Shown here: positions 5,492-43,508 of the stretch, in pieces | Layout: every line of letters starts with the position of its first letter | How positions within the stretch are numbered: position 1 is the first letter of the stretch | Source of the DNA: a bacterium | GTDB lineage: Bacteria; Verrucomicrobiota; Kiritimatiellia; CAIKKV01; CAITUY01 | Length of the DNA stretch: 64,000 nucleotides | Assembly: GCA_037143175.1 (NCBI GenBank) | Contig: JBAWZF010000010.1 | Coordinates: forward strand, 1 to 64,000 | Reading direction: 5' to 3' | Notes under the pieces: model-generated | The model's input: only the letters and a program-made list of their open reading frames with translations | Told to the model about the DNA's origin: nothing | Database searches by the model: none | Translations under genes and position numbers: made by a program

Positions 5492-6586
5492 ATGACATCA
5501 TCATTGCTTTCCTTGCAGGCATTAACAGCCCAATCCATAGACGTTTATTTTGGAACCTATACCAAGCCAAATTCTGCTGAAGGCATTTATCACGCCACAT
5601 TCTACCTTAAAACTGGAAGGCTTTCCGCACCAGACCTTTCTTGTGTGACACCCAGTCCGACATTTATTGAAATACATCCCAATTCCAAGTTTCTTTATGC
5701 GGTATCCGAACGGGATCCTGGAGCCGTTAGCTCCTTCAAGATTGAGTCTGAGTCAAAAAAACTTAAATTGATCAATAAAGCCGCTACCGGCGGCAAAGGC
5801 CCCTGCCACCTCTGCATTTCCAGGGACGGACGAACCCTGCTCGTTGCCAACTACGGGGGCGGAAGCGTGGCCTCCATTCCGATCAATAATGACGGTTCAC
5901 TGTCAGAAGCGGTCAGCGTGATTCAGCACACAGGTTCAAGCGTAAATCACCAGCGACAGCAGGAACCACATGTCCATAGTGTTAATCTCAGTCCTGATAG
6001 CCGGTTTGCCTATGTTGCAGATCTCGGTATCGACAAAATCATGATTTATACGCTAGAGGCCCAATTCAGTCGAATGCTGTCTGGTGAACCTGCTGAGATT
6101 AAAATTAAGCCCGGAGCTGGCCCCCGTCATTTGTCTTTCGACCCTGCCGGGAAGTTCGCCTACCTGATCAACGAGCTTGACAATACCATCATCGTCTTTG
6201 CGCATGAGGCAAAATCCGGAAACCTTGCGGAGATACAAACCATCCCCACGCTGCCAAAGGGGTATTCAGGGACGAGTATTTGTGCCGAAGTGAGAGTTCA
6301 CCCCAATGGTAAATTTCTTTACGGCTCGAATCGCGGACACGACTCCATTGCCATTTATAACATCCACCCGAAAAATGGGACGCTGACGCTGATTGGCTTC
6401 CAGAACACCGGCATCAAAACTCCGAGAAATTTCAATATTGACCCGACAGGGCAGTTCTGTTTGGTTGCCAATCAAGACGCCAATACCGTAATCGTCTTCC
6501 GCATTAATCAAGAAACAGGAATGCTGGAACCGACCACCGAGGTGATCAAAATCGGCACTCCGGTTTGTGTCCGTTTCATGCTATAA
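5492..6586 (+). CDS. Lactonase family beta-propeller (6-phosphogluconolactonase-like)
   Basis: A 364-residue seven-bladed propeller of the lactonase_7/YbhE type. Repeated blade motifs are visible: FIEIHPNSKFLYAVSE, HLCISRDGRTLLVANY, SVNLSPDSRFAYVADLG, HLSFDPAGKFAYLINE, EVRVHPNGKFLYGSNRG and NFNIDPTGQFCLVANQ. The family includes E. coli Pgl, which hydrolyses 6-phosphogluconolactone in the pentose phosphate pathway, but many members have other lactone substrates. The ATG at 5492 has AGGA about 12 bases upstream; the preceding in-frame ATG at 5378 would add 38 unlikely residues. MTSSLLSLQALTAQS might act as a weak signal peptide, but it lacks a good hydrophobic core. The M14 peptidase gene follows after 8 bases. 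Confidence 0.85.
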   Translation: MTSSLLSLQALTAQSIDVYFGTYTKPNSAEGIYHATFYLKTGRLSAPDLSCVTPSPTFIEIHPNSKFLYAVSERDPGAVSSFKIESESKKLKLINKAATGGKGPCHLCISRDGRTLLVANYGGGSVASIPINNDGSLSEAVSVIQHTGSSVNHQRQQEPHVHSVNLSPDSRFAYVADLGIDKIMIYTLEAQFSRMLSGEPAEIKIKPGAGPRHLSFDPAGKFAYLINELDNTIIVFAHEAKSGNLAEIQTIPTLPKGYSGTSICAEVRVHPNGKFLYGSNRGHDSIAIYNIHPKNGTLTLIGFQNTGIKTPRNFNIDPTGQFCLVANQDANTVIVFRINQETGMLEPTTEVIKIGTPVCVRFML

Positions 6587-6594
6587 GGCCATTT

Positions 6595-7728
6595 ATGAGT
6601 CTCAAAGCCACTTCTCATTTTTCTGGCGGCAATGCCGCTGATATCGAAATCCTAACGGGCGGACAGATTCCCGAGGTGCGATTCGCCTCTGATCCATGTG
6701 GGGGCGCCCAGGCGATGTGGTTTCACTTCCGGCTGGAGGAAACCGATCCTGATCCAGCCACCCAAACCAAGGTGCGCTTAACCTGGACGTATATCGATAC
6801 TGTGCCGGGTATTTCTGAGTCGCCGGACTGTATCCCTGTCTGCCTTGTGCCAGGCCAAACGTGGACGCGTCTCAAACAAGGTGAGGAAACGCGAACCCCT
6901 GACGGCCGCCGCCAAATCTCGTGGACGATCCCTTATCCTTCACCGTCGGTTATGATTGCATTCTGCATTCCCTATGGGCTATCCGATGTTGAAGCCATGC
7001 TCGATCGTTCAAAGGACTACTGGCAGGCTGTGCCTATTGGCCTCAGCCAGGGAGGGCGCCGTATTCTCCGCCTGCATAATGCCCCCGGCACACTGGGCGG
7101 CACTCAGCCGGGAATCTACATCATGGCCCGGCAGCACGCGGGAGAAACGCCAGGATCCTGGGTTCTTGACGGCTTTCTGCGGCACTGGGCACAGGTACGT
7201 AAGGGAGCCTATGTCATCTGGGCAGTCCCTCTTGCGGATATTGATGGCGTAGTGAACGGGCATTACGGCAAATCCGGAGACCTGTTCGACCTAAATTGTG
7301 CATGGGGTGCCCCCCCTGTCCGTCATGAATCGCGAGTGATCCGACAGGATGTAGAACGCTGGAAAGCACGGTGCCGCCCGATTTTAGCTTTGGATTTTCA
7401 TGCCCCCGGAGCCTGTGATCGGGATGGGGTTTACGCCCTGGTATCGAAAGCGCCAACTGAGCCGCAGGCCGCCGAGGAAATCAAGTGGTGTAACGTCATT
7501 CAAAATGAGCTACAGGCGGAATTTGCCGCTCCTGAGTTCAAACACTTGACGATCCCCTCTTTTGGAGAAACGCAGGATTTTGCGGGCTATATGCGTGCCG
7601 AAATGGGCGTGCCGACCCTGAGACTCAAGATCCCCTATTCCCATGTGGCAGATACGGTTCTTACTCAAAAAAGTTATCGCGAAATAGGCCGCCGTATTGC
7701 ATTGGCAATCTTACGCCGACACGGATGA
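6595..7728 (+). CDS. M14-type zinc carboxypeptidase (cytosolic carboxypeptidase-like)
   Basis: A 377-residue protein with an N-terminal beta-rich domain (about 1-130) and a carboxypeptidase domain. Zinc ligands are seen as HxxE in MARQHAGETPGSW and the distal His in ALDFHAPGACD. The next motif reads FDLNCAW where most M14 enzymes have DLNR-x-W, so the arginine that holds the substrate C-terminal carboxylate is replaced by cysteine. The catalytic glutamate, usually in a YTLE-like motif near the end, is not obvious (the segment reads PTLRLKIPYS). It may act on unusual substrates or be inactive. The ATG at 6595 was chosen over 6565, which overlaps the lactonase gene. Likely co-transcribed with the lactonase. 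Confidence 0.78.
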   Translation: MSLKATSHFSGGNAADIEILTGGQIPEVRFASDPCGGAQAMWFHFRLEETDPDPATQTKVRLTWTYIDTVPGISESPDCIPVCLVPGQTWTRLKQGEETRTPDGRRQISWTIPYPSPSVMIAFCIPYGLSDVEAMLDRSKDYWQAVPIGLSQGGRRILRLHNAPGTLGGTQPGIYIMARQHAGETPGSWVLDGFLRHWAQVRKGAYVIWAVPLADIDGVVNGHYGKSGDLFDLNCAWGAPPVRHESRVIRQDVERWKARCRPILALDFHAPGACDRDGVYALVSKAPTEPQAAEEIKWCNVIQNELQAEFAAPEFKHLTIPSFGETQDFAGYMRAEMGVPTLRLKIPYSHVADTVLTQKSYREIGRRIALAILRRHG

Positions 7729-14720: not shown

Positions 14721-15713
14721 CTACCAGTAATAAAGTTCCTGATACCATTTAGCCCAGGTTTTGAGGTCACCATTGTCACTCATTTGCGCTGCATTGAGTA
14801 ACTGGTCAGACGAGAACCAGGAGAAACAATCCTTTTGCCCGAGCAGATCATGAAAAGCCTGCATGGCTGGCAACAAACTGGTATTCCCGGGATGATGCAC
14901 AACAGAAAAAAACGCTTTTTTATAACGGCCGTTCGGATCCGTCTCGATGGCTGTCGCCAGCAACTGGGTGCGCCACAGCTGATTCATCCCGCCTCTGAAC
15001 GGACATGCCTTATCTTTCTGCAGGTTCTCAGGAGGAAACATATCTTTGTTTTTCAACGTAATACTCCAATAATTGAACCTTTTTGCGGAATGGAGAAAGC
15101 AATTTTCCCGCCCCTGCCGGGCGGCTGCATTGCGATCACAATCATCTTTGTGCTGATTAGCAGGATTGCGATATCCACCACAGGCAGTGAAATCATTCTC
15201 CGTTAATTTATGGGTAATCAGCCACAAACAAAGATCATCATCATGGTTGCGATAGGCAATAGCGATATCCGCATCAGTCGCCCCCTGGGCCCCCTGATCC
15301 CCCAGACGATTGGCCCCTTCATCACCAAATTCCATGCGGAGTCCCCTGTCAAATTCCTCAACCGCAATAGATTTTAAATCCGGCTTCACTTCCCTCAGAA
15401 TTTGAGCTGCGAGCAGTGGTGTTTCCATTAGCGGCAAGAAAAGATTGGCAGAGGCTATTTGTGAACTTGCCATGTGCCCCGCAAACTTATGCGTCTTAAA
15501 GTGAAACTTATTCTGATGTTCCCGGAACCGTGCCCGCACTGGATCATAGAGATGCGGCAGGGCCTGCTGCAATTTTCCAGGCAAAATAACATCATACATT
15601 TTTCCGCCAAAACTGCCCGGCAAGGGAGTTATGTTCCGGCTCTTCCACTCACATAAATGCAGGTACATCCCGCGCTGAAATTCACTCAACTGCTCTGGTA
15701 TCTTATATTGCAT
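14721..15713 (-). CDS. Putative PD-(D/E)XK endonuclease (PGN_0703-like)
   Basis: A 330-residue protein that I match only by general pattern. A segment ATDADIAIAYRNHDDDLCLWLITHKLTENDFTAC-type (about residues 143-180) has an Asp, a beta hairpin, then a strand ending in HK followed by LTE; this resembles the D...(E)xK core of the PGN_0703 restriction-like family, in which KLTE is usually preceded by Glu. Here the Glu is replaced by Thr-His, so the active site may be altered. Several Cys/His residues follow (CGGY, DDCDRN, CPF). It stands alone between divergent neighbours, with no methylase gene, so a defence role is a guess. The ATG at 15713 has GGAG upstream. Confidence 0.5.
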   Translation of the reverse strand: MQYKIPEQLSEFQRGMYLHLCEWKSRNITPLPGSFGGKMYDVILPGKLQQALPHLYDPVRARFREHQNKFHFKTHKFAGHMASSQIASANLFLPLMETPLLAAQILREVKPDLKSIAVEEFDRGLRMEFGDEGANRLGDQGAQGATDADIAIAYRNHDDDLCLWLITHKLTENDFTACGGYRNPANQHKDDCDRNAAARQGRENCFLHSAKRFNYWSITLKNKDMFPPENLQKDKACPFRGGMNQLWRTQLLATAIETDPNGRYKKAFFSVVHHPGNTSLLPAMQAFHDLLGQKDCFSWFSSDQLLNAAQMSDNGDLKTWAKWYQELYYW

Positions 15714-15849
15714 CAACTTGATTCTCCGATTTCTCTACCGCAGAATACCAGATATCAGACTAATAAGCGCGCAATTTTAAAGATCTAATGCTGGACAGCT
15801 AAAAGTGCCAATAGTAGAATGCAGGCATAGGCATGAAACGGGGGAAATT

Positions 15850-19900: not shown

Positions 19901-20644
19901 ATGCGTCCACTTGTCACAGCCATACGAACATTGACCCTTCTTCCTATTCCCGGGAAGGATTCTGCCAATTTGGCGAGTGCCCTTCCCTTCTTCCCGGCCA
20001 TAGGGGTTCTCATTGGTGCGCTCGTAGTTCTTACGCTTTATGTGGCTAGTCTAACCGGTTGGATCGCAGGAGCTGGTGTGATTGCCATGATTGTGGCCGT
20101 TTGGATCACCCGTGGGCTGCATGTCGACGGTCTGGCGGATGTCATGGATGCCCTGGGCGCGAGCCGCACACGGGAACGACGACTGGAGATCATGAAGGAT
20201 CCGCACATGGGGGCGTTTGGCGTTATGGCGATTGTCGGGGACCTTCTCCTGAAAACCGTTGCCCTCAGCCATCTTGCCGCCCTGAGTCAATGGTCGCTCG
20301 CCTTGGTTCCCTTTATCGTATCACGTACCGCACAAGTCTTTCTAGCCACCTCACTTCCTTACGCCAGGCAGGAGGGCGGCAAAGCGGCAGCCTTCGTGCA
20401 GGAAGCGCGTCACTATCATCTCCTTCTGGCGCTCCTCGCCGCAGTTGTGTTTTGTTTCGCCGCATCAGGATTAGCCGGACTGCTTCTGCTTTTGCAGGGC
20501 TTGATCTTTGCACTTTTCTTGAAATTCTGGATGCATCGTCACTTTGGTGGTGTCACGGGTGATCTTCTTGGGGCTTCCAACGAAGTGATTGAAACGGGCC
20601 TACTGACCTTTGCGGCCTTTATTGCCACGGCGGGATACGGATGA
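19901..20644 (+). CDS. cobS: Adenosylcobinamide-GDP ribazoletransferase (cobalamin synthase)
   Basis: A 247-residue membrane protein with the CobS pattern: LTLLPIPG, LPFFPAIGVLIGAL, RGLHVDGLADVMDALGAS, RRLEIMKDPHMGAFG and a C-terminal HFGGVTGDLLGASNEVIET. It joins adenosylcobinamide-GDP with alpha-ribazole in the last step of cobamide assembly. It leads a plus-strand run in which each gene overlaps the next (cobS, 774-residue membrane protein, btuF, btuC), so it is part of a cobamide salvage/import unit. I see no cobalamin riboswitch in the 96 bases upstream. Confidence 0.95.
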   Translation: MRPLVTAIRTLTLLPIPGKDSANLASALPFFPAIGVLIGALVVLTLYVASLTGWIAGAGVIAMIVAVWITRGLHVDGLADVMDALGASRTRERRLEIMKDPHMGAFGVMAIVGDLLLKTVALSHLAALSQWSLALVPFIVSRTAQVFLATSLPYARQEGGKAAAFVQEARHYHLLLALLAAVVFCFAASGLAGLLLLLQGLIFALFLKFWMHRHFGGVTGDLLGASNEVIETGLLTFAAFIATAGYG

Positions 20645-22965
20645 CGACATTAAGCGTATTCTGGTTTCTGCTGGTTATCGTAATTGCCGGAGGCATAAGT
20701 GCCTCCATTTTCCTGGCACTACGCGAGCGACTCCGAGGCAACTCCCTCATCACCCACATCCTTCTGGCGCTCTCTATTATGGCCGCCGGGTTTCTGTTAC
20801 TTCGCCCTCATGAGGACACTTTTACCGGGCTCGATACATCCTGTTACCGATTGATGGCTCATGCCTTTATGGAGGGCCGTCAACTTCACGACACAGACCG
20901 GACTTTACTTGAAATCCCCGAACCGCTCCGCCGGACCGTATTGCTGGAATACAGGAAATGGGGCAGAGACACACGGGATCGTTCATTTCAGATCACCTCG
21001 TTTATTACCGGCTCCATTCAACCCTATTTCTATCCTTTTCTCCCCATGGCGGCTGTCGGGCTTGATGTGCTGAGCGGCTCCCTGGGCGGCGATTATTTCG
21101 TCCCGCTCATGGGCCTACTGATCTTTGCGCTTATCCTTTGCACTGGCGCGGCTCTGGGAAATAAGTATGGACTGCTTGTCGGCGTCGTATTGTTGATTGG
21201 AACGCCTTTACCCGCCTACCTCTTCCGTGGGTATTATGCCGAAGCCGTCGCGGCAGGGCTTGTCATCATGGTTTTATTAGGCATTACGCTCTCCGCTCAT
21301 TCACGCCTTTTTAGAATATTCTCCCCACTGGCCATCGGACTCGCCGTGTGCTTTCATCCCGTCGCCATCATCCTTGCCCTGCCCGCCCTCATCATGATCC
21401 TGATTGACCCCTCAATATCCAGAAAAGGAATTTTCTTAAGCCTTATCGGATTTGCGATCGGACTGGCCCCGTGGTGGGCCATGACCGTTTGGGGGTGCCA
21501 GCCCTATGGCAATTTTTTTAATTTCAACGACTTCTCTGAACGGCTTTCAAAGGAAGCCCTACTTCGGTTTTTAGGCCTGTTCGTGGTGATCTTCGTTGTG
21601 GGTGTAGGGACACTGGTATTGGGGCCAACTTCACTTAAAAATCGAATTACCCTTGCGGTTAAACGAATCCTGTCTCACCCTGCACTTATTCTGATACTGC
21701 TTCTATTAGCCCTTTGCCCCTTTGCTCTGCCTTCGTCAATATGGCATGGTAAAACACTGATAATGTCAGGACTTGCTGAATATTGGGACGGTGTCCGCTG
21801 GGGTTATGGCTCCATTCTGCTGGCCGGTCTGCTTTCCACATTCTTCATCAAAGAGCATCCCCGTTCCCGTGCCTTACTTCTGCTGGCAGTGTTTCTGTCA
21901 CCTTTCTTCTTTTACTTAAAGGGCTTTGAACCCATGGGACTCTGGAGTCAACGTAGGTTCATTCCCTTTACGTTACTTTTGATCATAGCTCTCGCCCCCC
22001 CACTGGCAACGGCATGCCGCCTATTCGCAGCTAGAGCGGGACATATCCCAGCAACCCTCCTTTCGGGAGGATTGCTGATTGTCGGCCTGTTCAACTTTAT
22101 TCAATGGCCGGCCCCGTATCTTGCCCGCCACGAAAAAGGTGCCACCAAGTGGGTGGCATCACTCTCCCGTGACATTGGTCAACGGCTCACTTTTTTTGAT
22201 TACTATCCCTATAGCGTACCATTTGCCGCCTCCGGCAAAATGCGGGTTATCGGGCTGAGTGAATTTGGCTATGTGGCACATCCCAAACTATCCCAATGGC
22301 TGACCGAGCGCGCTGGACAGGAGGAAGTGTTATGGGTGACAGCCTACAGTAACCCAGGACTTGAGGACGGAGTAGTGTTCCAAAGTCTGGGGCATCAGAC
22401 AGTAAGTTTTGATCGTATTGTCAGTAAAACGGCGCTCCCAGCAGAATGCCGCAAATATGTGATGGATATAGATATCCTAAAAGGTGTCCCCGTTACCAAT
22501 TCCGCTGGCCTCGTCGTTCGCAAGATTCTGGATGATGGGCCCTTAGCATTGCGCGGCCCCTGGGGGCGAGGAAGCCAAATTCAGACGACAAACGCCCTGC
22601 TTCCAGCCCGCTGGAGCCGGGAGGGCTCTGGAATAATCGGCCCCATCCCGCAAGTCGGGCGCTCTGTCCGTATCACGATCGAGGCTGCGGCCTCACGTGA
22701 TGATGGGCTTCCGAGGCAAATACTGAAAATCACACCACCCTGGTCAGGCCCTGGCTTGGCGCTAACCATCAGCAACGAGTTTACGAGGGTATCTGGTATT
22801 CTCGCCCGCCCCGATGGTTCGCCCGGCGGATCGCCCACAGGAATCTACAAGATTTCTTCCGAAATGCCTTATGACCCCGGGAAAATTGGCATTAGCGGAT
22901 ATCCCTCCGACCTTGGTGCACGGATCCATCTGATTGTAATTGAAGACACGGAAAGTCATTTATGA
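20641..22965 (+). CDS. Large polytopic membrane protein, GT-C glycosyltransferase-like
   Basis: A 774-residue protein with about 12 membrane helices in residues 1-490 and a soluble C-terminal region of about 280 residues. An early extracytoplasmic loop contains GLDTSCYRLMAHAFMEGR and IQPYFYPFLPM, the acidic residue and aromatic pattern seen in GT-C (dolichol/undecaprenyl-phosphate sugar) transferases such as the PMT/ArnT superfamily. I cannot name the family with certainty. Start ATG overlaps the cobS stop (ATGA), and the btuF start overlaps its stop, so it is translated inside the cobamide operon. What it adds to that pathway is unknown. Confidence 0.6.
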   Translation: MTTLSVFWFLLVIVIAGGISASIFLALRERLRGNSLITHILLALSIMAAGFLLLRPHEDTFTGLDTSCYRLMAHAFMEGRQLHDTDRTLLEIPEPLRRTVLLEYRKWGRDTRDRSFQITSFITGSIQPYFYPFLPMAAVGLDVLSGSLGGDYFVPLMGLLIFALILCTGAALGNKYGLLVGVVLLIGTPLPAYLFRGYYAEAVAAGLVIMVLLGITLSAHSRLFRIFSPLAIGLAVCFHPVAIILALPALIMILIDPSISRKGIFLSLIGFAIGLAPWWAMTVWGCQPYGNFFNFNDFSERLSKEALLRFLGLFVVIFVVGVGTLVLGPTSLKNRITLAVKRILSHPALILILLLLALCPFALPSSIWHGKTLIMSGLAEYWDGVRWGYGSILLAGLLSTFFIKEHPRSRALLLLAVFLSPFFFYLKGFEPMGLWSQRRFIPFTLLLIIALAPPLATACRLFAARAGHIPATLLSGGLLIVGLFNFIQWPAPYLARHEKGATKWVASLSRDIGQRLTFFDYYPYSVPFAASGKMRVIGLSEFGYVAHPKLSQWLTERAGQEEVLWVTAYSNPGLEDGVVFQSLGHQTVSFDRIVSKTALPAECRKYVMDIDILKGVPVTNSAGLVVRKILDDGPLALRGPWGRGSQIQTTNALLPARWSREGSGIIGPIPQVGRSVRITIEAAASRDDGLPRQILKITPPWSGPGLALTISNEFTRVSGILARPDGSPGGSPTGIYKISSEMPYDPGKIGISGYPSDLGARIHLIVIEDTESHL

Positions 22966-23825
22966 AAAGTGACTGCTCATTCGCGTATTTCACGTGTTTC
23001 GCATTACTGTTATCCGGCTGTAGACCTGCCCCACTGCCCCCACCTTCGGCCTCCACGCCCCGCATTATTTCTCTGGCCCCCAGTATTACCGAAATAGTTT
23101 ATGCCCTGGGTGGAACTAACCAATTGATCGGACGGAGTTCAGCCTGCGATTATCCTCCTGCAGCCGTGAGCAATGTTCCGGTCATCGGTGACTTTGGTGT
23201 CCCTTCGCTGGAACGTATCGTATCGCTCCGGCCCGATCAGGTGCTCTATACAGATGTAGCTGACCCGATGATGGACAGTAAAATGACCCGTGTGGGGCTC
23301 CATCCCGTTCACATTGCATGTGAACGCCTTACAGATATTCCCCCTGCCATAATTCACGTTGGACAACTAATTCATAGGGAACCTCAAGCTAAAGCCCTTG
23401 CGGCTAGCCTCATCTCCCAAATTCAGACGGCCCGTGAACAGGCGACAACCTTCATAAATCGACCCCGCATTCTGGTGTTAATCTGGCATGACCCCTTTTA
23501 TGCGGCCGGCAGTAAATCATTTGTCTCAGACCTTATCGCATTGGCAGGCGGCCAAAACATCGGTGACGAAATCAACAGGGACTATTTCCAAGCCTCATCC
23601 GAATGGGTGTTAGCTCATGATCCGGATATTATTTTTTGTTTTTTTATGGCGAGCAGTACTCCTGTCAGTCAAACCATCATCCGACAGCCCGGTTGGAGCC
23701 ACATTAAAGCAGTCCGAGATGGACGGGTATATGACGGGTTTGATAACAATGTTGCCTTACGACCCGGCCCGCGCGTGATGCAGGGCTTTGAAGTAATTAA
23801 AAATCAAATTCATGCGAAACAGTAG
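22962..23825 (+). CDS. btuF: Cobalamin-type ABC transporter substrate-binding lipoprotein
   Basis: A lipobox LLLSGC at about residues 15-20 follows a short hydrophobic signal. The mature protein is a class III binding protein: PRIISLAPSITEIVYALGG, VPVIGDFGVPSLERIVSLRPDQVL, then DLIALAGGQNIGD and an HIKAVRDGRVYDG end. Adjacent btuC, btuD and cobS make corrinoid the likely ligand; siderophore or heme binders look alike. The signal-peptide codons coincide with a dispersed repeat (22980-23006). Start overlaps the preceding gene by four bases. Confidence 0.85.
   Translation: MKSDCSFAYFTCFALLLSGCRPAPLPPPSASTPRIISLAPSITEIVYALGGTNQLIGRSSACDYPPAAVSNVPVIGDFGVPSLERIVSLRPDQVLYTDVADPMMDSKMTRVGLHPVHIACERLTDIPPAIIHVGQLIHREPQAKALAASLISQIQTAREQATTFINRPRILVLIWHDPFYAAGSKSFVSDLIALAGGQNIGDEINRDYFQASSEWVLAHDPDIIFCFFMASSTPVSQTIIRQPGWSHIKAVRDGRVYDGFDNNVALRPGPRVMQGFEVIKNQIHAKQ
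22980..23006. repeat. Dispersed repeat, copy 1 (inside btuF signal sequence)
   Basis: A TTCGCGTATTTCACGTG-TTTCGCATTA stretch, closely similar to stretches at 31659-31685 and 47004-47032 (shared core: TTTCGCG, then GTTT, then GTAGTT-like end). The other two copies are intergenic; this one encodes part of the BtuF signal peptide (SFAYFTCFAL). Confidence 0.5.
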
Positions 23826-24777
23826 AAATTTCTGGCTGATGATGGCATTGACCCCGTTTATTCTGACGCTCTGCGTCATGATGGGGCCTTCTGGCATTGG
23901 CATGCCGGATCTGAATACGGATCGCGAAATACTCATGCTCCGCTTGACGCGGGTGCTATGCGGGCTGATTATCGGGGCGGCGTTGTCCTGTGCCGGTGTT
24001 GTCTTTCAAGCCATTTTGCGCAATCCCCTGGCCGAGCCCTATATTCTGGGCGTCAGCAGCGGTGCAGGTCTGGGCGCGGCCATCGCCATTGTTACGGGCA
24101 TAGCGGCAGCGGGAGCCTACGTCCTTCCCCTTTGCGCTTTTGTAATGGCCGTCATCACGCTGGCACTTGTTTATGCCTTGTCACGCAATGGGGATTCACC
24201 GTCCATCTACGGATTGATTCTGAGCGGAGTCATTGTCAGCGCCGTCTGCTCCAGTCTCCTGATGTTCATGGTCTCTGTATCGTCCATCGAGGGAATGCAC
24301 AGCATTCTCTGGTGGATGCTGGGAAATCTGGAAGTCAGTTCCAATAACGTCCTGATGCTCATTGGAGTGGTTGTGGTTACCGGATGTTTTGGCCTATGGG
24401 CAATGTCTCGGGAACTGAATGCCCTCACTCTCGGCCACCACATGGCCCATCACCTCGGCATCCAGGTCAAGGTTACCATTATCACCGCCCTGCTTCTGGC
24501 TACCTTAGTGGCCTCGGCGGCCGTAGGGGTCGCCGGGCTGATCGGCTTCGTGGGTTTGATTGTCCCTCACATCATGCGAAACCTGGTGGGGGCCGATCAC
24601 CGGCGCTTGATTCCCGCCGCCGCCATTGGCGGCGGGGTTTTTCTGGCCGCCTGCGATGCGCTGGCAAGAACCATCCTGGCCGTTGAAATCCCGGTAGGTG
24701 TCATCACCGCCCTGCTTGGGGGCCCTTTTTTTCTTTTCCTCCTGAAGCGACGCCGTACCCAGAGTTGGCTTGATTGA
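23812..24777 (+). CDS. btuC: Cobalamin-type ABC transporter permease (FecCD family)
   Basis: A 321-residue permease with about ten membrane helices. Family blocks: RLTRVLCGLIIGAALSCAGVVFQAILRNPLAEPYILGVSSGAGLGA, then GLIGFVGLIVPHIMRNLVGADHR, and VGVITALLGGPFFLFLLKR. It would pass corrinoid across the inner membrane with the BtuF binder and the ATPase encoded next. Overlaps btuF by 14 bases. Confidence 0.92.
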   Translation: MRNSRNFWLMMALTPFILTLCVMMGPSGIGMPDLNTDREILMLRLTRVLCGLIIGAALSCAGVVFQAILRNPLAEPYILGVSSGAGLGAAIAIVTGIAAAGAYVLPLCAFVMAVITLALVYALSRNGDSPSIYGLILSGVIVSAVCSSLLMFMVSVSSIEGMHSILWWMLGNLEVSSNNVLMLIGVVVVTGCFGLWAMSRELNALTLGHHMAHHLGIQVKVTIITALLLATLVASAAVGVAGLIGFVGLIVPHIMRNLVGADHRRLIPAAAIGGGVFLAACDALARTILAVEIPVGVITALLGGPFFLFLLKRRRTQSWLD

Positions 24778-24785: not shown

Positions 24786-26045
24786 ATGACGACTGCTATT
24801 CAACTTGATCATGTAACGGCTAAGTACCGGGAGCATCCGGTACTACAGGATATTTCGTTGACGATCAATTCAGGTGAAATGGTTGGAATTCTGGGCCCCA
24901 ATGGAGCAGGTAAATCAACCTTATTTAATATTGTATCCGGTCTTTTGACACCTGCCACGGGAACGGTAAAGTTATTTAATGCGGATCTACGCCAGATGCC
25001 CCCCCGAGAGCGAGCCAAAGCCATTGCCGTGGTTCCACAGGAACTCGACATTCCTGTTCCCTATACAGTCGAGGAAATTGTCATGATGGGGCGTACGGTT
25101 TCAATGGGCCGGTTTGCAAAACCGACTTCACAGGATCGTCAAGCTGTCGAGCGGGCCATGGTTTATACCGATGTGGCAGATATCCGCCACCGCCACCTGA
25201 ATGAGTTGAGCGGCGGAGAACGACAACGCGCCATTGTTGCGATGGTTCTGGCGCAGGAACCCCGTATCATTCTCATGGATGAAGCCACCTCTCATCTCGA
25301 CATCAATCATCGGCTGGAAATCATGCAATTGGTTGAACGACTGAACCGTGAATCAGGGGTCACGGTGTTGATGATCAGCCATGATCTCCAAATGGCCGCT
25401 GAATTCAGCCGCCGTCTGATCGTGTTGCAGCATGGGAACATTGTGGCTGATGGCATTCCCAGCATGGTACTAACGGAAGAGACGCTGCGTCGGGTTTATA
25501 ATTGTGATGTTCGCGTCAGTCAGGATCCCCAGACAGGAGGTCTTAGCATTCTGGCGGCCCCGCGTCTGCCTGCGGCCGCAGCAGGCAAAGGAATCCAGAT
25601 CCACGCGGTGGCAGGAGGCGGTTGCGGGGAAGCCACCTTGCGCAGACTGGCCCTCTGCGGCTACACGCTGAGTTGCGGGGTGGTCAGTCAGGGTGACATG
25701 GATGCCGAGATTGGTGCTGTATTGGGTGCCAAACTGGCCTTGGAAAAACCCTTTTCCCCGATCAGTCGTGAAGCACTTCAAGTGGCGCAGGATCTGGCCT
25801 TTAAAGCCGATGCCTTGGTGTTAACCCCGATTCCATTTGGTACAGGGAATTTGCCTAATCTGGAATTGCTGGAGAGTGCGTTAACCGCAGGGAAACCGGT
25901 CTTTATTGCATCAGGCATTGGAAATCGGGATTACACCCCGACCCGTCAAGCCGAAAAATGGGTACAAACACTGATAGATCGCGGCGCAAAACCCTATCAA
26001 GATGTAGCCGAATTATTAACCCTGCTTCCCGCGAAGTCAGGTTGA
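24786..26045 (+). CDS. btuD: Cobalamin-type ABC ATPase with extra C-terminal domain
   Basis: Residues 1-255 are an ABC ATPase: Walker A GPNGAGKSTL, Q-loop VPQEL, signature LSGGERQR, Walker B RIILMDEAT and the switch His in ISHDLQ. Residues about 270-419 form a second domain (IQIHAVAGGGCGEATLRRLALCGY, AKLALEKPFSPIS, GTGNLPNLELLESALTAGKPVF, RDYTPTRQAEKW) seen fused to ATPases of this class in some bacteria and archaea; its role is unknown, possibly nucleotide or cobinamide binding. The ATG at 24786 fits the family start but has only a C run before it; a TTG at 24774 overlaps btuC. Confidence 0.88.
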   Translation: MTTAIQLDHVTAKYREHPVLQDISLTINSGEMVGILGPNGAGKSTLFNIVSGLLTPATGTVKLFNADLRQMPPRERAKAIAVVPQELDIPVPYTVEEIVMMGRTVSMGRFAKPTSQDRQAVERAMVYTDVADIRHRHLNELSGGERQRAIVAMVLAQEPRIILMDEATSHLDINHRLEIMQLVERLNRESGVTVLMISHDLQMAAEFSRRLIVLQHGNIVADGIPSMVLTEETLRRVYNCDVRVSQDPQTGGLSILAAPRLPAAAAGKGIQIHAVAGGGCGEATLRRLALCGYTLSCGVVSQGDMDAEIGAVLGAKLALEKPFSPISREALQVAQDLAFKADALVLTPIPFGTGNLPNLELLESALTAGKPVFIASGIGNRDYTPTRQAEKWVQTLIDRGAKPYQDVAELLTLLPAKSG

Positions 26046-33383: not shown

Positions 33384-36300
33384 ATGGACAACCGGGCAAA
33401 AATAGAGCTAAAGGTGGTCATACTGATTGGCTGTTTGCTTGTGGCTTTGAGTTGGTGGATTTTTCGAACCACCCTATCGCCAATCCTAATCCCCGTCACT
33501 GATCTTTCGTCCACCTCTTCCCTGCTTCCACAGTCTTCTTTAACCACAACTCAGTCCCTGCTGAACAACCGAACCCAGCTAAACAACCAGCAAAACACCA
33601 ACTCAACAACCGGCGCATCTCCCGTCCCCGTATCCTCGCCAGTTTCGACCATCCCTGACGACCCAACAATGGGGATGCCTGTACTCCAGGTTTCGGAAAC
33701 ACCGGAAACCAGTCATCCTGACAGCATTAAAAGGGTCAGGATTGTTCGTGCTAACTTCAAATACCCGCTCTGGCGTGTTGAGGAGTTTGTGATGAAAGCA
33801 CCGGCAGGAAAATCTGAAACCATTCAGTCCCGCAACATCATGATCGCCGACCATGTCATGATACGATTAAATCCTGAGGCAGCACCCATGAATTTGGAGG
33901 CTCTTGTAAAAGAACAAGGCCTGACTATTCGTAAGGTAATGAAAATGCCCGGTTGTTACCTGATCAGCATCCCAGACGAGTCTATTGCCGCCCTGCCCCG
34001 CCTGTTAACGATCCTGGGGCAGCAGAAGGGCCTCATCCGATATGTCGAACCGGATTACGTGGTCCGTTCTCAACAGACCATTCCTAATGATCCCAAATTC
34101 GGATTGCTCTGGGGGCTCAATAATAACCCAACCCCGGCCGCGGATATCTCTGCCCCTCAAATCTGGGATCTTACGACCGGTGATAAGCAGGTTGTCATTG
34201 CTGGCATCGATACCGGCATGGACTACAATCATCCGGACCTTGCCTCCAATATCTGGCACAACACAGCAGAAACTCTTAATGGTTTGGATGACGATGGCAA
34301 CGGCTATATCGACGACATTCGTGGTTGGAATTTTGTGGATGCCACCAATACCCCCATGGACGGGCAAGGCCATGGGACCCACACGGCGGGAACCATGGGT
34401 GCAGTGGGCAACAATGGAATTGGTGTTGTGGGCGTCAACTGGAACTGCCAGCTCATGCCTTTGAAGTTTCTGGATAACAGCGGCAATGGTGTAATTTCCG
34501 ACGCTGCCGATGCCCTTCACTATGTCGCCGATTTACGGCGACGCGGAGTCAATATCAAGATCACCAACAACAGCTGGGGTGGCGGCGGCTACAGTTCAAC
34601 GTTTAAAGATGCTCTGGATGAGAATGCGGGGCTCGGAATTTTGTTCATGGCAGCGGCAGGTAATGATAGCCAAAATAATGATATATACCCTTTTTACCCC
34701 TCTTCCTACAGTGATTCGAACGTCCTCGCCATTGCGGCAACGGATGGCTACGACGCGCTCGCCACCTTCTCGCATTACGGCTCCAACTCTGTCCACCTCG
34801 CCGCGCCCGGCGTTGATATCTACAGCTCACTTTACGGGGGGCGTTATGGTTATATGAGCGGAACCTCCATGGCCACGCCTCATGTCGCAGGCGTTGCCGC
34901 CCTGTTGTGGAGCCTTTGGCCTACGGCCCGAGCCGAAGACATCAGGGATGCCATTCTTAAAGGGGTAGATGTAATTCCCTCCCTGATCGGGAAAACGATA
35001 ACCGGAGGCCGACTTAACGCACGTAAGTCAGTTGATGCCTTGTTTCGAATCGTACACAGTGCTCACGGGAATACCTTTAACAGTGGCGCCAGCTATCCCA
35101 TCGAATGTGAAGTGGGCCCCTCTATTTTGACAGATACCAATCAGATTTTCGTCTATTGGGCTGCAAATGGATCCACCAATTTCAGCGTGGCATCCTGCTA
35201 TAAGGTGAGTAATACTTGTTTCAGAGCATTTATCCCAGAACATCCGGAAAGTACCCAAATCCGATATTGGATTCAAGCGGCCACCACAAACGGACTCATT
35301 GTACACCTACCCACTGATGCCCCGACCAACACCTTTGACTTTACCGTTGTTCCCCCCGTAAGTCTTTTAGTTGCCGGAACGCCCGCCTTCATCTCCAGTC
35401 CCAGTCCTGACTACGGGGCGCAAGCCTGCCCTTCCGGTAAAATTGTTCAAGCGAGTGTCCCTGCCGCGACCCCCCAGACTAATGGCATGCGCTGGGCCTG
35501 CAGCGGTTGGCTTGGGACAGGTAGCGTCCCGGCCTCCGGAACCAGTAACGTTGTCTCCTTTACGCTAACCACCAATTCTTCGTTGACCTGGCAATGGCAG
35601 TCCCAATGTGCTTTGACGCATACCTCGCTCTATTCCCGTTTAAATACCACAACGTGGTGGGCCTCAGGAACCATCGCAACGTCTCTGCCTGCCCCCGCCT
35701 CAATCTACGTCAGCCGCATACTTCATGAATTTACAGGGTGGACTTTAGATGGGGCGCGGCAGCCGGACTTGACCAGCCCTGCCGTTAACCCCATAACGGG
35801 GATTCTCATGAACACTCCGCACCAAGCCATAGCGCTGTTTGTTCCTGAAGCCTTGGATAGCGATGGGAATGGAATGAATGATTGGTGGGAGATTTTCTAT
35901 CTGGGGCACAACGCCTGCGATCCCAATGCAGATCCCGATGGCGATGGCTTTAATAATCTTAGCGAGTTCAAAGATCAGACAAATCCAAATGACTCGCGAT
36001 ATGTCCCCACCCCCGCAGTCATCAATCATACCCCGCTGAACTACCGGCAACCGCTTCCTGCGCCTTACACCGTTTCAGCCATCATTACCGATAATTTCAA
36101 AGTAGTCTCAACCATCATGTGCTGGAGCCGCAATGGTGGTCCGGTAACAGCAACCCCCATGACGGCTGGTATCGGACAGGTATTCACCGCCTCCATTCCC
36201 CCGCCGGGTACAAACGGGGATAGCTTTGTATATTCAATCATTGCTACCGATCCACTAACCGCCACTACGAACGGCCCCTATAGCGTGATTCCAAGTTATC

Positions 36301-38507
36301 CTGAAATCCAATCATCACCTTCATGCTATAACCCGATGATTCTCCCCGAAACCACTTCCAATCTGATGTTGTCTGTGACGAATTCAGGAGTGGGCTCCTG
36401 GCATGGCAATGTCTCCATTTTGTGGGGCGGCTTTAGCAATGATATCGAAAACGGTGCAGGCGCCTGGACTCACTCTGGTTCCAACGATTTATGGAATATC
36501 TCGACAAATCTGGCATTTTCAGGGGCACAAGCGTGGTATTGCGGGGATCCCGGTGCTTCTCTTTATGCGCCGAGTATGCATGCTAAACTGGACTCTGCCC
36601 CATTTTATGTAACCCCTGGGGCACAACTGACGTTCCGGCATTGGATTAAATGTGAACTCGACGGTCAGTATTGGCGGCCGGGCTGGAAATATAATAATTG
36701 CTGGGATGGCGGCATTGTTGAGATTTCCACAAATAACGGGGCCTCGTTCAAACAGATTTCGCCAATTGGCGGTTACCCGAATTTAATTTCAGGATATGCG
36801 GCCTCGCCCTGGCCTGACAGAACCCCTTGTTTTGCAGGCAATGGTTCTTCCTGGACTCAGCCTGCATTCGATCTTTCCTCGTTTGAAGGCTGTGTAGCTA
36901 TTCTCCGCTTTCATTTCGGATCGGATGATAATACCGAGGAAACCGGCTGGTTTATCGACGATATTATGGTCTCACCCATAATCCAGCCTCAAGCCTGGCT
37001 GACGCCGGTCAGTACCAACGTGATAGTTCCCTCAAAAAGCAGTGCCTGCCTGCCCTTCGCCATATTGAACAGCGCAGAGATTCCGACCGGTGACCGCACC
37101 TCTGTCCTTTGGATCGCCGGCAACACGATCACTAATCTGAACACGTTCATCCCCGTTCATTTAAAGGTACGGTCCCCCGCCACCTTGATCTGGTGTTACG
37201 CCGGGCAAACTTCGACCAACGGGACAGGTCAAATTACACTGACCAACCAATTGCACGATGCCGATGGGGACGCCTGCCTTGCATCTATCGAATGGAGTAC
37301 TATCCCCGGGGTGTGGCGTAACACATGGCTCACATCAGTCCAGTCTACTATTGGTTCAGCCACACTCATCGGAGATGAAGCCTGGCCGCTTTCCAACCTC
37401 CTTACCCGAAGCGAGGCAGGAGTGGTTACAAACAACCTTGTCTCCATTTGGGATTCTCAAGCCACGGGGTGTGCAATTGTCTATTCGAGTAACACGTTCC
37501 TTCGAGTCCGCACCTGGGATGGCCTCTTTTTGAGCAGTTGGGTGACCAGTCAGCCTTTTAGGGTGGATAATGAAGCTCCGCCCACCCCGCCACATCTTTT
37601 CTCACTCGTTCATCAAACAAATGCCTGGTCTAAAAACTCAGTCATGAGTCTTCGCTGGGATTCGGTTCAGGAAACGCGCGGGAGTGGGGTGACCAATTAC
37701 TTATTTGGGACAACTACTAATTTATCAGTCCTGATAACAACCAATACGACTACAGGCCTAACGGGATCCCCGCCCCCTCTGTCCGACGGCACCAATTACT
37801 GGGGCTGGGTTCGTGCCAGAGACAAAATGGGAAACCTTGGCGTACCTGCATTTTACGGACCTTGCTGGATTGATGCCACACCTCCCTCGGCAGCTCTTGC
37901 CGGGATCACCCTCAAACTGAGCCCTTATGGTAGCTATATAGTGGGCTCAAATTCTGTAACGGGCGTCTGGTCAAACTTTACTGACGGGGCCGGCTCTGGC
38001 ATTTCGGGATACTACTTTGCCCCTACCAATGCAGGAGGCACCACGAAAGGCACCTGGACAACCAATACGCAAGGCCTGATTTCAAGCCTCCTAACGGATC
38101 GAACTAATACGATGTATGTGTGGGCCAAAGATCAGGCCGGGTGGATTGGACAGGCAACCTATGCCTCATTTATAGTGCTTTCGCCAAATAGTGACTGGGA
38201 TCATGACGGAGTACTGAACTGGCAGGAAGAAATTTCCGGAACCGATGCCTTGCTCGGAGGAAGCGTATTCCAAATTGGGGCCTCAAACAATACACCAGGC
38301 CTTGAAGGTGGATTCACATTACAGTGGCCCGGCCTTACCAACCGGCACTATACCATTTCGTATAAGGATACCATGGGCCCCATTGGTAGTTGGATCAACT
38401 TGCCAGGGGCAACTGGTCTCACAGGAACGACGGGAATAATGAGCTATACCGATAACACGCTGACGCACCCCAGCAGGTTCTACCGGATCTCAGTGACCGC
38501 GCCGTAA
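33384..38507 (+). CDS. Very long secreted subtilisin-like protease (S8)
   Basis: A 1707-residue protein. Residues 13-28 are a signal/membrane helix, then a Ser/Thr/Asn/Gln-rich stretch (about 45-90) and a propeptide-like segment (about 150-235). The S8 catalytic triad is complete: Asp276 in AGIDTGMDYNHPDL, His330 in GHGTHTAG, Ser495 in SGTSMATPHVAG. The remaining 1100 residues hold beta-sandwich repeats, an Asp-rich calcium-type segment (DSDGNGMNDWWEIFYLG, then DPDGDGFNNLSEF, near 840-880), an immune-inhibitor-like accessory domain (about 1020-1200), and a second DHDGVLNWQEE site before the C-terminal domain. No sorting signal of PEP-CTERM or LPXTG type. No good ribosome binding site is visible. 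Likely secreted to degrade external protein. Confidence 0.88.
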   Translation: MDNRAKIELKVVILIGCLLVALSWWIFRTTLSPILIPVTDLSSTSSLLPQSSLTTTQSLLNNRTQLNNQQNTNSTTGASPVPVSSPVSTIPDDPTMGMPVLQVSETPETSHPDSIKRVRIVRANFKYPLWRVEEFVMKAPAGKSETIQSRNIMIADHVMIRLNPEAAPMNLEALVKEQGLTIRKVMKMPGCYLISIPDESIAALPRLLTILGQQKGLIRYVEPDYVVRSQQTIPNDPKFGLLWGLNNNPTPAADISAPQIWDLTTGDKQVVIAGIDTGMDYNHPDLASNIWHNTAETLNGLDDDGNGYIDDIRGWNFVDATNTPMDGQGHGTHTAGTMGAVGNNGIGVVGVNWNCQLMPLKFLDNSGNGVISDAADALHYVADLRRRGVNIKITNNSWGGGGYSSTFKDALDENAGLGILFMAAAGNDSQNNDIYPFYPSSYSDSNVLAIAATDGYDALATFSHYGSNSVHLAAPGVDIYSSLYGGRYGYMSGTSMATPHVAGVAALLWSLWPTARAEDIRDAILKGVDVIPSLIGKTITGGRLNARKSVDALFRIVHSAHGNTFNSGASYPIECEVGPSILTDTNQIFVYWAANGSTNFSVASCYKVSNTCFRAFIPEHPESTQIRYWIQAATTNGLIVHLPTDAPTNTFDFTVVPPVSLLVAGTPAFISSPSPDYGAQACPSGKIVQASVPAATPQTNGMRWACSGWLGTGSVPASGTSNVVSFTLTTNSSLTWQWQSQCALTHTSLYSRLNTTTWWASGTIATSLPAPASIYVSRILHEFTGWTLDGARQPDLTSPAVNPITGILMNTPHQAIALFVPEALDSDGNGMNDWWEIFYLGHNACDPNADPDGDGFNNLSEFKDQTNPNDSRYVPTPAVINHTPLNYRQPLPAPYTVSAIITDNFKVVSTIMCWSRNGGPVTATPMTAGIGQVFTASIPPPGTNGDSFVYSIIATDPLTATTNGPYSVIPSYPEIQSSPSCYNPMILPETTSNLMLSVTNSGVGSWHGNVSILWGGFSNDIENGAGAWTHSGSNDLWNISTNLAFSGAQAWYCGDPGASLYAPSMHAKLDSAPFYVTPGAQLTFRHWIKCELDGQYWRPGWKYNNCWDGGIVEISTNNGASFKQISPIGGYPNLISGYAASPWPDRTPCFAGNGSSWTQPAFDLSSFEGCVAILRFHFGSDDNTEETGWFIDDIMVSPIIQPQAWLTPVSTNVIVPSKSSACLPFAILNSAEIPTGDRTSVLWIAGNTITNLNTFIPVHLKVRSPATLIWCYAGQTSTNGTGQITLTNQLHDADGDACLASIEWSTIPGVWRNTWLTSVQSTIGSATLIGDEAWPLSNLLTRSEAGVVTNNLVSIWDSQATGCAIVYSSNTFLRVRTWDGLFLSSWVTSQPFRVDNEAPPTPPHLFSLVHQTNAWSKNSVMSLRWDSVQETRGSGVTNYLFGTTTNLSVLITTNTTTGLTGSPPPLSDGTNYWGWVRARDKMGNLGVPAFYGPCWIDATPPSAALAGITLKLSPYGSYIVGSNSVTGVWSNFTDGAGSGISGYYFAPTNAGGTTKGTWTTNTQGLISSLLTDRTNTMYVWAKDQAGWIGQATYASFIVLSPNSDWDHDGVLNWQEEISGTDALLGGSVFQIGASNNTPGLEGGFTLQWPGLTNRHYTISYKDTMGPIGSWINLPGATGLTGTTGIMSYTDNTLTHPSRFYRISVTAP

Positions 38508-40623: not shown

Positions 40624-42366
40624 TCAATACCTGATACCAAGCAAGCATCCTGCTTGATCCGCATCCGTAAGAGTCAACCGGACGTATTTCTTTATATCGA
40701 AACCGCTAGAAAATTCACTATATGGGACGGCATCACTATTAAGGGTACAAATGTATTGAAATCCATCCGAGTTCGCGTCCTTCGCTGCAATTTCCAAGGC
40801 CAGGGCACGTTGTCTTTCATCGACACCATCAAAAATCAAACTGTCGTGTATGAGAATTCCGGGCGAAACAATTTTTCGGGCCCATATTGCAGCCAAGGTC
40901 ATGTCATAACAGAACACCTTCATGTTATTGATGCCGGTGCTACCTGACCGTTCAATCTCAACATCAAACTTGAATCCATTGAGGCCAACATCAATGACAA
41001 GTTTTCCAGGCACGCTATAGAGCCCCTGGGAGTAGCGATTAAATAATCTGATGGCGGTCTCCCGAATTTCCCGTCGTTCTTCATAGTCGCGGAGAGATCG
41101 CTGTTGCAGCACCTGCTGATCAATCTTGAATTGGCTCATGCCCGTTTCACATGACTTTAAATTGTCAATGGTCGCGGTAATGGAGTTCAAAGTGTTTTGC
41201 GTTTCCAAATGCCGTTTCTGCAAAAGGGTATATTCTTCAAGCGCGCCATGCGTCTTCAAAACCTCCATAACAACAGCCCGCTCGTTCGATTTCGCCTTAA
41301 TCAATTGCTCGCGAGCCTCGATGGCCATTTTCAACCGGGAGACTTCCGCCTCAAGAAAAAGCCGCCGGTTCTCAATTATGGTGTGATGAAATGCCTGAAC
41401 ATCCTCAATACGACGTAGTGCCACGCCCGGCAAAGCAACACCCGCATCGGCATAGAGTTTTTCTACTGCATTAGGAACGGGTGCATTTTCCTCGGCTAAG
41501 CTCTTCTCGTATAGCGACAATATCCGCTGATCCTTGGAATTATGATTGGCCTCAACATGGATCTCTTCCGTAAGTTGATTCGCCTGCATCCGGATGTCCT
41601 CATACTGAGGATGTACCTTGAAGGATTCCAGATTTGCAGCCTCTTCCCCCGCTTTTTCACTTAATCGAACACGCCTGGCCTCCAAATCACCCCGAGACCC
41701 AACAAAGCCTTTCAGTACGCCCGTTTTGGCGGCCTTGATCAAACCTTCGAGGCCTTTCTTCCGATCTTTCAGAACCTGCACTTCCACAGCGTTCTCCCAC
41801 GCCAAACCAAGAAGAAATGCATTATTAACCTGCCGAGCCCATTCGGCCTGTTTCCCGTGGTGCTCAAATGGTGTAAAATAAGCGTCTTTCTGACGCCTGA
41901 CAAAGTATGAGAAAAGACTGCGGAAAGTCGGTTGATATTTCAGGCTGTCATCAGCACCGGGCAACCCGAAGAAAAGGCCCCCTAAAATCAGATTCCAATC
42001 CCGAACGGAGAAAACATATTTATCTTTTTTCTTTTTGGGCCTGAATGGACATTCGTCGGGAAGCCCGTTAACCACAACATCGTTGGGTGCATCAATGGAA
42101 CGGATGGCAGTAATGGACCGCCCCCCCACTTCCAGTTCCACTGTAAAAGCCCACCCACTGAGGGCATCCACAAGCAGCCCCTTGCCTTTAGCCGCCTTGG
42201 CCCCCAGACAGAAATGAATGATTTCAATTAAAGTGGATTTCCCCAGCCCGTTACGGGAATCAAGTTTTGTTGACTCATGGGTGCGTTCTGCCAATAACAC
42301 ATTGAAGCCCGGTTTGAATTCTACGGTTTTGAATGACGCATGATTTGAAGAGACTCGCTTAATCAT
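40624..42366 (-). CDS. ABC-3C conflict system ATPase (DUF2326-type)
   Basis: A 580-residue SMC/RecN-like ATPase. Walker A is RNGLGKSTLIE (residues 39-48); a central coiled coil spans about 190-430; the C-terminal DUF2326-like part carries the Walker B region ILIHDSLIFDGVDERQ (about 503-519). In ABC-three-component systems this protein senses an invader signal and licenses the effector. It is the last gene of the operon, its ATG overlapping the middle-component stop by four bases (ATGA). The 3' end lies 358 bases from the left repeat copy. Confidence 0.85.
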   Translation of the reverse strand: MIKRVSSNHASFKTVEFKPGFNVLLAERTHESTKLDSRNGLGKSTLIEIIHFCLGAKAAKGKGLLVDALSGWAFTVELEVGGRSITAIRSIDAPNDVVVNGLPDECPFRPKKKKDKYVFSVRDWNLILGGLFFGLPGADDSLKYQPTFRSLFSYFVRRQKDAYFTPFEHHGKQAEWARQVNNAFLLGLAWENAVEVQVLKDRKKGLEGLIKAAKTGVLKGFVGSRGDLEARRVRLSEKAGEEAANLESFKVHPQYEDIRMQANQLTEEIHVEANHNSKDQRILSLYEKSLAEENAPVPNAVEKLYADAGVALPGVALRRIEDVQAFHHTIIENRRLFLEAEVSRLKMAIEAREQLIKAKSNERAVVMEVLKTHGALEEYTLLQKRHLETQNTLNSITATIDNLKSCETGMSQFKIDQQVLQQRSLRDYEERREIRETAIRLFNRYSQGLYSVPGKLVIDVGLNGFKFDVEIERSGSTGINNMKVFCYDMTLAAIWARKIVSPGILIHDSLIFDGVDERQRALALEIAAKDANSDGFQYICTLNSDAVPYSEFSSGFDIKKYVRLTLTDADQAGCLLGIRY

Positions 42367-43339: not shown

Positions 43340-43361
43340 GTAATAATCTAATACCAGTTAA

Positions 43362-43370
43362 ATTATAACA
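43362..43370 (-). promoter_or_regulatory. Extended -10 promoter of the ABC-3C operon
   Basis: The minus strand reads TGTTATAAT, a perfect TG-n-TATAAT extended -10 element, 23 bases before the ATG of the HNH gene. No good -35 hexamer lies at the right distance, which is acceptable for extended -10 promoters. The predicted transcript begins about 16 bases before the start codon. Confidence 0.55.
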
Positions 43371-43425
43371 GTGCAACATCTTCATTTGTGCAGGAGTTTC
43401 CAAAGATTGGTCGATGACTGCGGGC

Positions 43426-43468: not shown

Positions 43469-43508
43469 CGCCCCGTCCCAAATCTAGAGCGCGCAGTTCT
43501 ACTACTGT

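Follow-up and report, generated by a model that had tools for sequence, protein, structure and literature searches.

Predicted GT-C glycosyltransferases with a C-terminal sugar-binding domain in Kiritimatiellia, including one coded between cobS and btuF

The window analysed here is the whole stretch of 64,000 nucleotides of contig JBAWZF010000010.1 from a bacterium of the class Kiritimatiellia, and the features under study are collected in Table 1. The central open reading frame starts with ATG, comprises 774 codons and contains no internal stop, and its product is 70-71% identical to that of the closest sister species and 54-55% identical to those of three others of the genus. It overlaps cobS by 4 bases and btuF by 4 bases, and btuF overlaps btuC by 14 bases; this serial arrangement had been described in a first-pass annotation and was borne out by the ORF coordinates and the Pfam assignments of the neighbours. 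Overlaps were ordinary in the window: in a list of ORFs picked by hand, 13 of 35 pairs of same-strand neighbours overlapped, a count inflated by taking mostly the first possible codon as the start. The overlaps alone therefore say little about function.

Table 1. Coordinates of the 774-residue protein gene, its predicted parts and the adjacent genes in the window
Feature	Coordinates	Strand	Basis
cobS (neighbour only)	19901..20644	+	PF02654, E 5.5e-53
Predicted 774-residue GT-C glycosyltransferase with C-terminal sugar-binding domain	20641..22965	+	ORF; AlphaFold2; VIA-align GT-C rows over residues ~30-618
Membrane part, residues 1-499	20641..22137	+	DSSP of the model; 12 hydrophobic segments (simple hydropathy count)
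D65 codon, candidate catalytic Asp (GLDxSxYR)	20833..20835	+	Alignment conservation; role by analogy with GT-C enzymes
R438-R439 codons (WSQRR), candidate lipid-phosphate binders	21952..21957	+	24/24 rows of alignment A2
Alpha/beta part, residues 500-619, probably periplasmic (side inferred)	22138..22497	+	DSSP of the model; D520 in 24/24 rows
CBM35-like beta-sandwich, residues 620-774	22498..22962	+	Residues 610-774 folded alone; VIA-align
btuF-like binding protein (neighbour only)	22962..23825	+	PF01497 (Peripla_BP_2), E 1.4e-31
btuC-like permease (neighbour only)	23812..24777	+	PF01032 (FecCD), E 3.4e-83; BtuC the best NCBIfam row, under cut-off
btuD-like ATPase with C-terminal extension (neighbour only)	24786..26045	+	PF00005 (ABC_tran); PRK09536 the best NCBIfam row, under cut-off

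The surrounding genes had been termed a cobamide salvage operon, which is a generous name. CobS, the binding protein, the permease and the ATPase were all recognised by Pfam, but CobT and CobU are coded away from cobS on other contigs of the same genome (C58 and C7, respectively), and the NCBIfam models for BtuF, BtuC and the corrinoid ATPase all matched the window proteins below their own cut-offs, as did that for heme IsdE, the best NCBIfam row of the btuF-like protein. Cobalamin riboswitches were found neither in the window at the gathering threshold nor between positions 19100 and 23200 at E ≤ 1. The control search at the gathering threshold detected them in two relatives, G001 (locus L092) and G124 (locus L056), and gave none in the other eight of the ten stretches searched, including the locus of the sister genome G004 (L031). 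Corrinoid riboswitch control of the operon was rejected on the basis of these empty searches and the positive control. Co-transcription of the set from cobS through the 774-codon gene to btuF is plausible in the window's species and in G004. For the btuD-like ATPase, the ATG at 24786 was taken as the start, with a TTG at 24774 as an open alternative.

Relatives of the protein were collected from several samples. Family matches were obtained in 28 of 146 relatives at E ≤ 0.001, and these yielded 20 places (L031-L050) in 19 genomes, with the window's own locus counted apart and eight genomes with weak or partial matches left out. A wider contig search with the single 774-residue sequence gave no match, and the same search with the family profile gave 23 loci, 14 of which duplicated contigs already counted (for example, L063 is the same as L035) and nine of which were new (L065, L070, L074, L076-L080 and L083), so that 30 distinct loci including the window were available. 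The loci besides the window are 3.9 to 20 kb long, and the contigs of L032, L033, L049 and L070 are short; missing neighbours there are therefore weak evidence. Neighbours were called by tblastn, and GT2 rows below 90 bits and BtuD rows below 150 bits were excluded. Among 345 genomes of the class Kiritimatiellia, the family was present in 52 (profile, E ≤ 1e-10), of which the 41 with a best match at E ≤ 1e-45 were used as strong-hit genomes and the 11 weaker ones were dropped from the comparison. In a phylum-wide sample, 22 of 387 genomes matched the profile at E ≤ 1e-20 and all 22 were from the window's class. The labels of contigs with profile matches include Kiritimatiellae, Kiritimatiellia, Kiritimatiellota, Lentisphaerae and Verrucomicrobia, and in one case Desulfovibrionales.

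The first-pass annotation had placed the protein outside the known cobamide pathways, with which our analysis agrees, and had suggested that it might modify a corrinoid receptor or act in cobalamin trafficking, a suggestion that was not upheld. If the protein served cobamide uptake or assembly, by glycosylating a corrinoid receptor or transporter or by handling cobalamin, its position between cobS and btuF would reflect that role. Such a role would fit the overlapping order cobS-gene-btuF-btuC-btuD in the window, the full conservation of this order in G004, the occurrence of CobS alongside the family in each of the six genomes of the genus, and the finding that btuFCD again adjoins glycan-type genes in two further species of the genus (G002 and G005). 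It is nevertheless considered very unlikely, because cobS or btu genes flank the family at only two of the 30 distinct loci, namely the window and G004. The earlier annotation had proposed this neighbourhood search itself and had held that homologues found nowhere near cobamide genes would indicate a chance join; the count came close to that outcome. CobS was detected in 9 of the 41 strong-hit genomes (and was thus missing in 32) versus 44 of the 304 others (Fisher p 0.25), and in 12 of 52 versus 41 of 293 when all family genomes were taken (p 0.10), kinship being ignored in both tests; outside the window's genus it occurred in just 3 of 35 strong-hit genomes. In G124, cobS, cobT and cobU lie together on contig C4 behind a cobalamin riboswitch and the enzyme lies on C9. 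The empty riboswitch search by the window's cobS, as well as the GT-C fold and carbohydrate-binding module (CBM) described below, which indicate glycans, also argue against a cobamide role.

Within the genus, the gene was found in different surroundings. In G002 and G003 it is full-length and, as read by eye, divergent from the genes for threonyl-tRNA synthetase and IF3; in G001 it is full-length in a different place without cob genes nearby, and in G005 it is a fragment at a contig end. The cobS genes of these four genomes, and the btuC genes of G001, G002 and G005, are on contigs other than the enzyme's, and no btuC match was found in G003. The gene upstream of btuF likewise varies, which also speaks against a cobamide role: in G002 it codes for a sugar transferase (Bac_transf by Pfam), in G005 for a protein whose sequence looks similar by eye, and in G001 a TonB-dependent receptor and TonB lie there, behind a riboswitch. 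This variation between species of one genus is a reminder that overlapping genes in a single genome do little to show a shared function. In the protein tree, the window's protein and that of G004 form a pair within a five-member genus clade, with support of 100/100 for both groups; among the species sampled, the place by cobS was therefore gained, or retained, in that pair alone. Linkage and co-occurrence with cob and btu genes, as marks of a cobamide protein, were not found for the family, and the position among B12 genes seems to stem from a recent rearrangement at this locus and not to signal a B12 function. This removes a link to vitamin B12 that was tempting for this membrane enzyme but misleading. 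Capture of the glycosyltransferase into the corrinoid operon of the window's species and G004, by which a change in surface glycans would be coupled to cobamide uptake, is regarded as highly improbable; if it had occurred, the access of corrinoids, or of phages using the B12 receptor, to the outer membrane might for example be altered.

Sequence searches assigned the protein to no described family. Pfam and NCBIfam gave zero families for the 774-residue protein at E ≤ 1, and the curated cut-offs of PMT, PMT_2 and similar GT-C families of Pfam were reached neither by the window protein nor in a search with 18 members of the family. Over these 18 members, Pfam returned five stray families, each in a single member, with a best E of 0.014. 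The family profile found nothing among PDB sequences at E ≤ 1, and a search with the 774-residue sequence alone gave one PDB-sequence row (E 2.9), which was judged to be noise. Among the papers found on Kiritimatiellota glycosyltransferases and on cobalamin-gene neighbourhoods, no title names the family. The family is thus covered by no Pfam or NCBIfam model, yet the kind of protein is already known.

The AlphaFold2 model (built with 24 sequences) had a mean pLDDT of 92.6 and a pTM of 0.90. Foldseek gave five PDB matches at E ≤ 0.001, which were ArnT twice (1.8e-5 and 5.8e-5, the former being the top match), ALG12, DPY19 and the yeast oligosaccharyltransferase. By VIA-align, the full model matched AftB (Z 17.9, rmsd 5.2 over 395 residues), ALG12 (Z 17.6), DPY19 (Z 16.4) and ArnT (Z 15.6, rmsd 4.8 over 417 residues), as well as oligosaccharyltransferases and PMT4; since Z can reach about 14 at best for mainly helical models that have no clear counterpart, the GT-C rows stand somewhat above this level and ArnT only slightly. 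A GT-C topology comprises 7-13 transmembrane helices, the first of which is followed by an extracytoplasmic part, and the predicted model, the PDB matches and the 12 hydrophobic segments agree with it. The protein is therefore very probably a glycosyltransferase of the GT-C fold, although the fold by itself is no proof of activity. A GT-C-like membrane protein had been proposed by the first-pass annotation, together with structure prediction as the check, and both the model and its best PDB matches, which are GT-C enzymes, support this assignment.

Residues 610-774 were also modelled separately (pLDDT 92.2). The top five VIA-align rows of this C-terminal domain were all CBM35, led by 2w87 (Z 11.3, rmsd 2.8 over 119 residues). 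With Foldseek, the first two rows were the iota toxin Ib pore and Cry1Ac, and CBM16, CBM6 and CBM35 were among the rows that followed; the toxin rows were taken to reflect a shared beta-sandwich. In the membrane part, D65 follows closely on the model's second long helix and was invariant across the 18 rows of alignment A1; in alignment A2 it was present in 23 of 24 rows, the remaining row being a gap. It is a candidate for the catalytic aspartate, expected in or near the first periplasmic loop, by analogy with GT-C enzymes (PMC11127046), and R438 and R439 are candidate lipid-phosphate binders by analogy with the conserved arginine described for such enzymes (PMC7801869).

The consistent partners of the family were a GT2 synthase similar to GacI and a DUF2304 protein similar to GacJ. 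One or both were found by tblastn within about 5 kb of the enzyme at 20 of the 30 distinct loci (GT2 at 19) and neither at the other 10; in the example loci, Pfam confirmed GT2 in four and DUF2304 in three. All 31 GT2 rows carried the DxDxQ motif, which has been proposed to mark polyprenyl-phosphate sugar transferases (PMC10821137); the rows stand for 22 distinct places, and at 19 of these the enzyme is nearby. Across the 345 genomes, 82 had DUF2304 (two of them under the Pfam cut-off), and its distribution followed that of the family: 38 of the 41 strong-hit genomes versus 44 of the 304 others (p 3.7e-24), or 42 of 52 versus 40 of 293 with all family genomes (p 7.9e-22), kinship again being ignored. 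It was on the enzyme's contig and at most 8 kb away in 22 of the 41, and was not found in three (G157, G324 and G328, which are 80, 56 and 66% complete, respectively). The occurrence of DUF2304 in 44 of the 304 genomes without a strong family match means that the GT2-DUF2304 pair serves other users too. The neighbourhoods read also carry other glycosyltransferases, a UDP-sugar dehydrogenase-like protein and a lipid A acyltransferase (many identified by eye); at L039, for example, GT2 is followed by the lipid A acyltransferase.

In the window's own genome, both the GT2 synthase with DxDxQ and the DUF2304 protein of a Gac-type set are coded, on contig C49 together with LpxK and a GT9 heptosyltransferase-family protein, and no other large membrane protein (frames of at least 250 residues with at least five hydrophobic segments) was found in the 16 kb of C49 that were read. 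The enzyme and the pair lie on different contigs in all six genomes of the genus, three enzyme contigs of which (G002, G003 and G005) are shorter than 9 kb and so bear little on distance; we therefore infer the partnership within the genus. The pair, or one member of it, is coded near the GT-C gene at 20 of the 30 family loci, but neither at the window's locus nor at the genus loci seen; adjacency of synthase and GT-C gene is usual and not required, as the scattered gene numbers of Gac-type systems described for Listeria indicate (PMC8035078). The donor might instead come from another synthase, or be an oligosaccharide, as the separation of pair and enzyme throughout the genus would allow. In G004, moreover, another large membrane protein (about nine hydrophobic segments) adjoins the pair and could be its transferase, which weakens the case for the 774-residue enzyme as the user. 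A donor other than the product of the GacI/GacJ-like pair is rated as rather unlikely, against which stand the proximity of the pair to the enzyme at 20 of 30 loci and the co-occurrence in 38 of 41 genomes.

The set of GT2, DUF2304 and GT-C proteins is the Gac set, and CBMs have precedents in GT136 and EmbC; on these grounds the protein is read as a surface-polysaccharide transferase. It is probably the transferase of a system of the GacI/GacJ/GacL type, in which undecaprenyl phosphate would carry a sugar that the enzyme passes to a polysaccharide of the cell surface, probably lipopolysaccharide (LPS). In the cytoplasm, the GacI-like GT2, aided by the GacJ-like DUF2304 membrane protein, would load one sugar onto undecaprenyl phosphate, with the C49 pair presumably doing so in the window's genome. 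A flippase, which in Gac-type systems is of the GtrA or Wzx type, would then turn the loaded lipid over, and the GT-C protein of the inner membrane would transfer the sugar in the periplasm, most likely onto the O-antigen or core of LPS, while the CBM35-like domain may hold the acceptor. In the window's genus, the gene would have left its GT2-DUF2304 partners, and in two species it would have landed between cobS and btuF. Proteins such as those of the S-layer, pili or lipoproteins might be the acceptors in place of polysaccharide, for the acceptor class is not deducible from a GT-C fold and DPY19, PMT4 and oligosaccharyltransferases were among the PDB matches; this is thought unlikely, in that the CBM35-like domain suggests a glycan acceptor and polysaccharide and LPS genes are among the neighbours.

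For the group A carbohydrate of Streptococcus pyogenes, GacI with GacJ is described as making undecaprenyl-phosphate-GlcNAc; GacK is proposed to flip this lipid, and sugar transfer on the outer side is ascribed to GacL (PMC8035078, PMC8327497, PMC10821137). The present family resembles this system in that a GT2 synthase with DxDxQ, a DUF2304-type helper and a GT-C transferase are coded in one cluster, a likeness of gene set, and differs from it in the LPS-type genes around and in the C-terminal CBM. A GT-C fold with a C-terminal CBM is shared with GT136 (ORF12) of Citrobacter youngae O1, which is described as adding side chains to the O antigen in the periplasm from an undecaprenyl-phosphate sugar and whose CBM binds the acceptor and was non-essential under the conditions tested (PMC11127046). 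GT136 has an essential aspartate at the start of its first periplasmic domain, of which D65 would be the candidate counterpart, and its donor synthase, unlike the GT2 partner found here, uses PRPP and differs from GtrB-type enzymes (PMC11127046).

ArnT, which takes an undecaprenyl-phosphate donor and lipid A as the acceptor (PMC11127046), shares 11-14% identity with the present protein; its VIA-align alignment stops at residue 617, ahead of the CBM, and the Pfam PMT models fail to match the present family. The mycobacterial arabinosyltransferases AftB, AftD and EmbA-C were among the best structural matches, at 9-13% identity in the structural alignment; a CBM is present in EmbC, where it binds acceptor analogues (PMC3044687), and in AftD (PMC11127046). 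The family thus adds to a little-studied Gram-negative class a GT-C group that combines a sugar-binding domain with a clear set of partners, and it may merit a CAZy family of its own.

In two other genomes of the genus (G002 and G005), the binding protein, permease and ATPase genes btuFCD were flanked by genes for a sugar transferase and a membrane glycosyltransferase, which were assigned by Pfam in G002 (Bac_transf and PMT_2, respectively) and judged by eye in G005 (the latter as PMT_2-type). The Bac_transf sugar transferase gene of G002 and btuF shared a 4-base overlap. This is a second instance in the genus of btuFCD adjoined by glycan genes. In a further sister genome, G001 (stretch L092, 137-5419, + strand), a btuF-like stretch and btuC/btuD were preceded by genes for TonB and a TonB-dependent receptor, with a cobalamin riboswitch ahead of them all; such a riboswitch/TonB-receptor head was lost from, or was never present at, the btuFCD of the window. 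Upstream of cobS, a tmRNA was located at most about 2.2 kb away in three sister species.

Coordinates of features in the window and in stretches of other genomes (L-numbers, local coordinates)
Feature	Location	Strand	Basis or remark
Large membrane-type ORF	L039 7658-9556		
Large membrane-type ORF	L043 6800-8716		
Large membrane-type ORF	L046 12060-14513		
Large membrane-type ORF	L047 11732-13738		
Large membrane-type ORF	L059 10085-12073		
PA14-like protein	L036 6365-6928		Pfam PA14 (6365-6925)
PA14-like protein	L036 13215-13772		by eye
PA14-like protein	L035 13922-14455		by eye
PA14-like protein	L031 9745-10176		by eye
btuFCD and flanking glycan-type genes, G002	L093 2703-8889	-	flanking genes by Pfam
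btuFCD and flanking glycan-type genes, G005	L094 6160-12544	+	flanking genes by eye
tmRNA upstream of cobS	L051 4668-5022		
tmRNA upstream of cobS	L054 6298-6652		
tmRNA upstream of cobS	L053 1-115		
Bacterial RNase P RNA class A	window 1-360	-	truncated by window edge
REase-ARP and PDDEXK_13 protein	window 14721-15716	-	Pfam
Subtilase-domain protein, 1707 aa	window 33384-38507	+	
PDC-M68B	window 40624-42366	-	PADLOC, E 3.1e-199
PDC-M68A HNH	window 42590-43339	-	PADLOC, E 8.2e-87
Short ORF, 227 aa, resembling part of helicase DrmD	window 43780-44463	-	model of 1040 positions
ORF, 345 aa, LacI-type DNA-binding domain, proline-rich tail	window 45916-46953	+	

A member of the family of the predicted GT-C glycosyltransferase, adjoined by a GT2 gene and a weak DUF2304 match, was found on a contig titled Desulfovibrionales (L079, 6963-9215), by either transfer or mis-binning. 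The DUF2304 protein of another locus (L037, 7312-8880, - strand; 522 aa) had a long second part beyond the DUF2304 stretch. Large membrane-type ORFs other than the enzyme (about 630-820 aa) repeatedly adjoined the enzyme or its GT2 partner (five loci); their mutual relation was judged by eye, and a PMT_2 match below the cut-off was recorded in one of the five. Small PA14-like proteins were encoded close to the enzyme in three loci.

Within 40624-44463 (- strand) of the window, PDC-M68B and PDC-M68A HNH were detected by PADLOC as a candidate defence pair, and the DrmD-like short ORF adjoined this pair.
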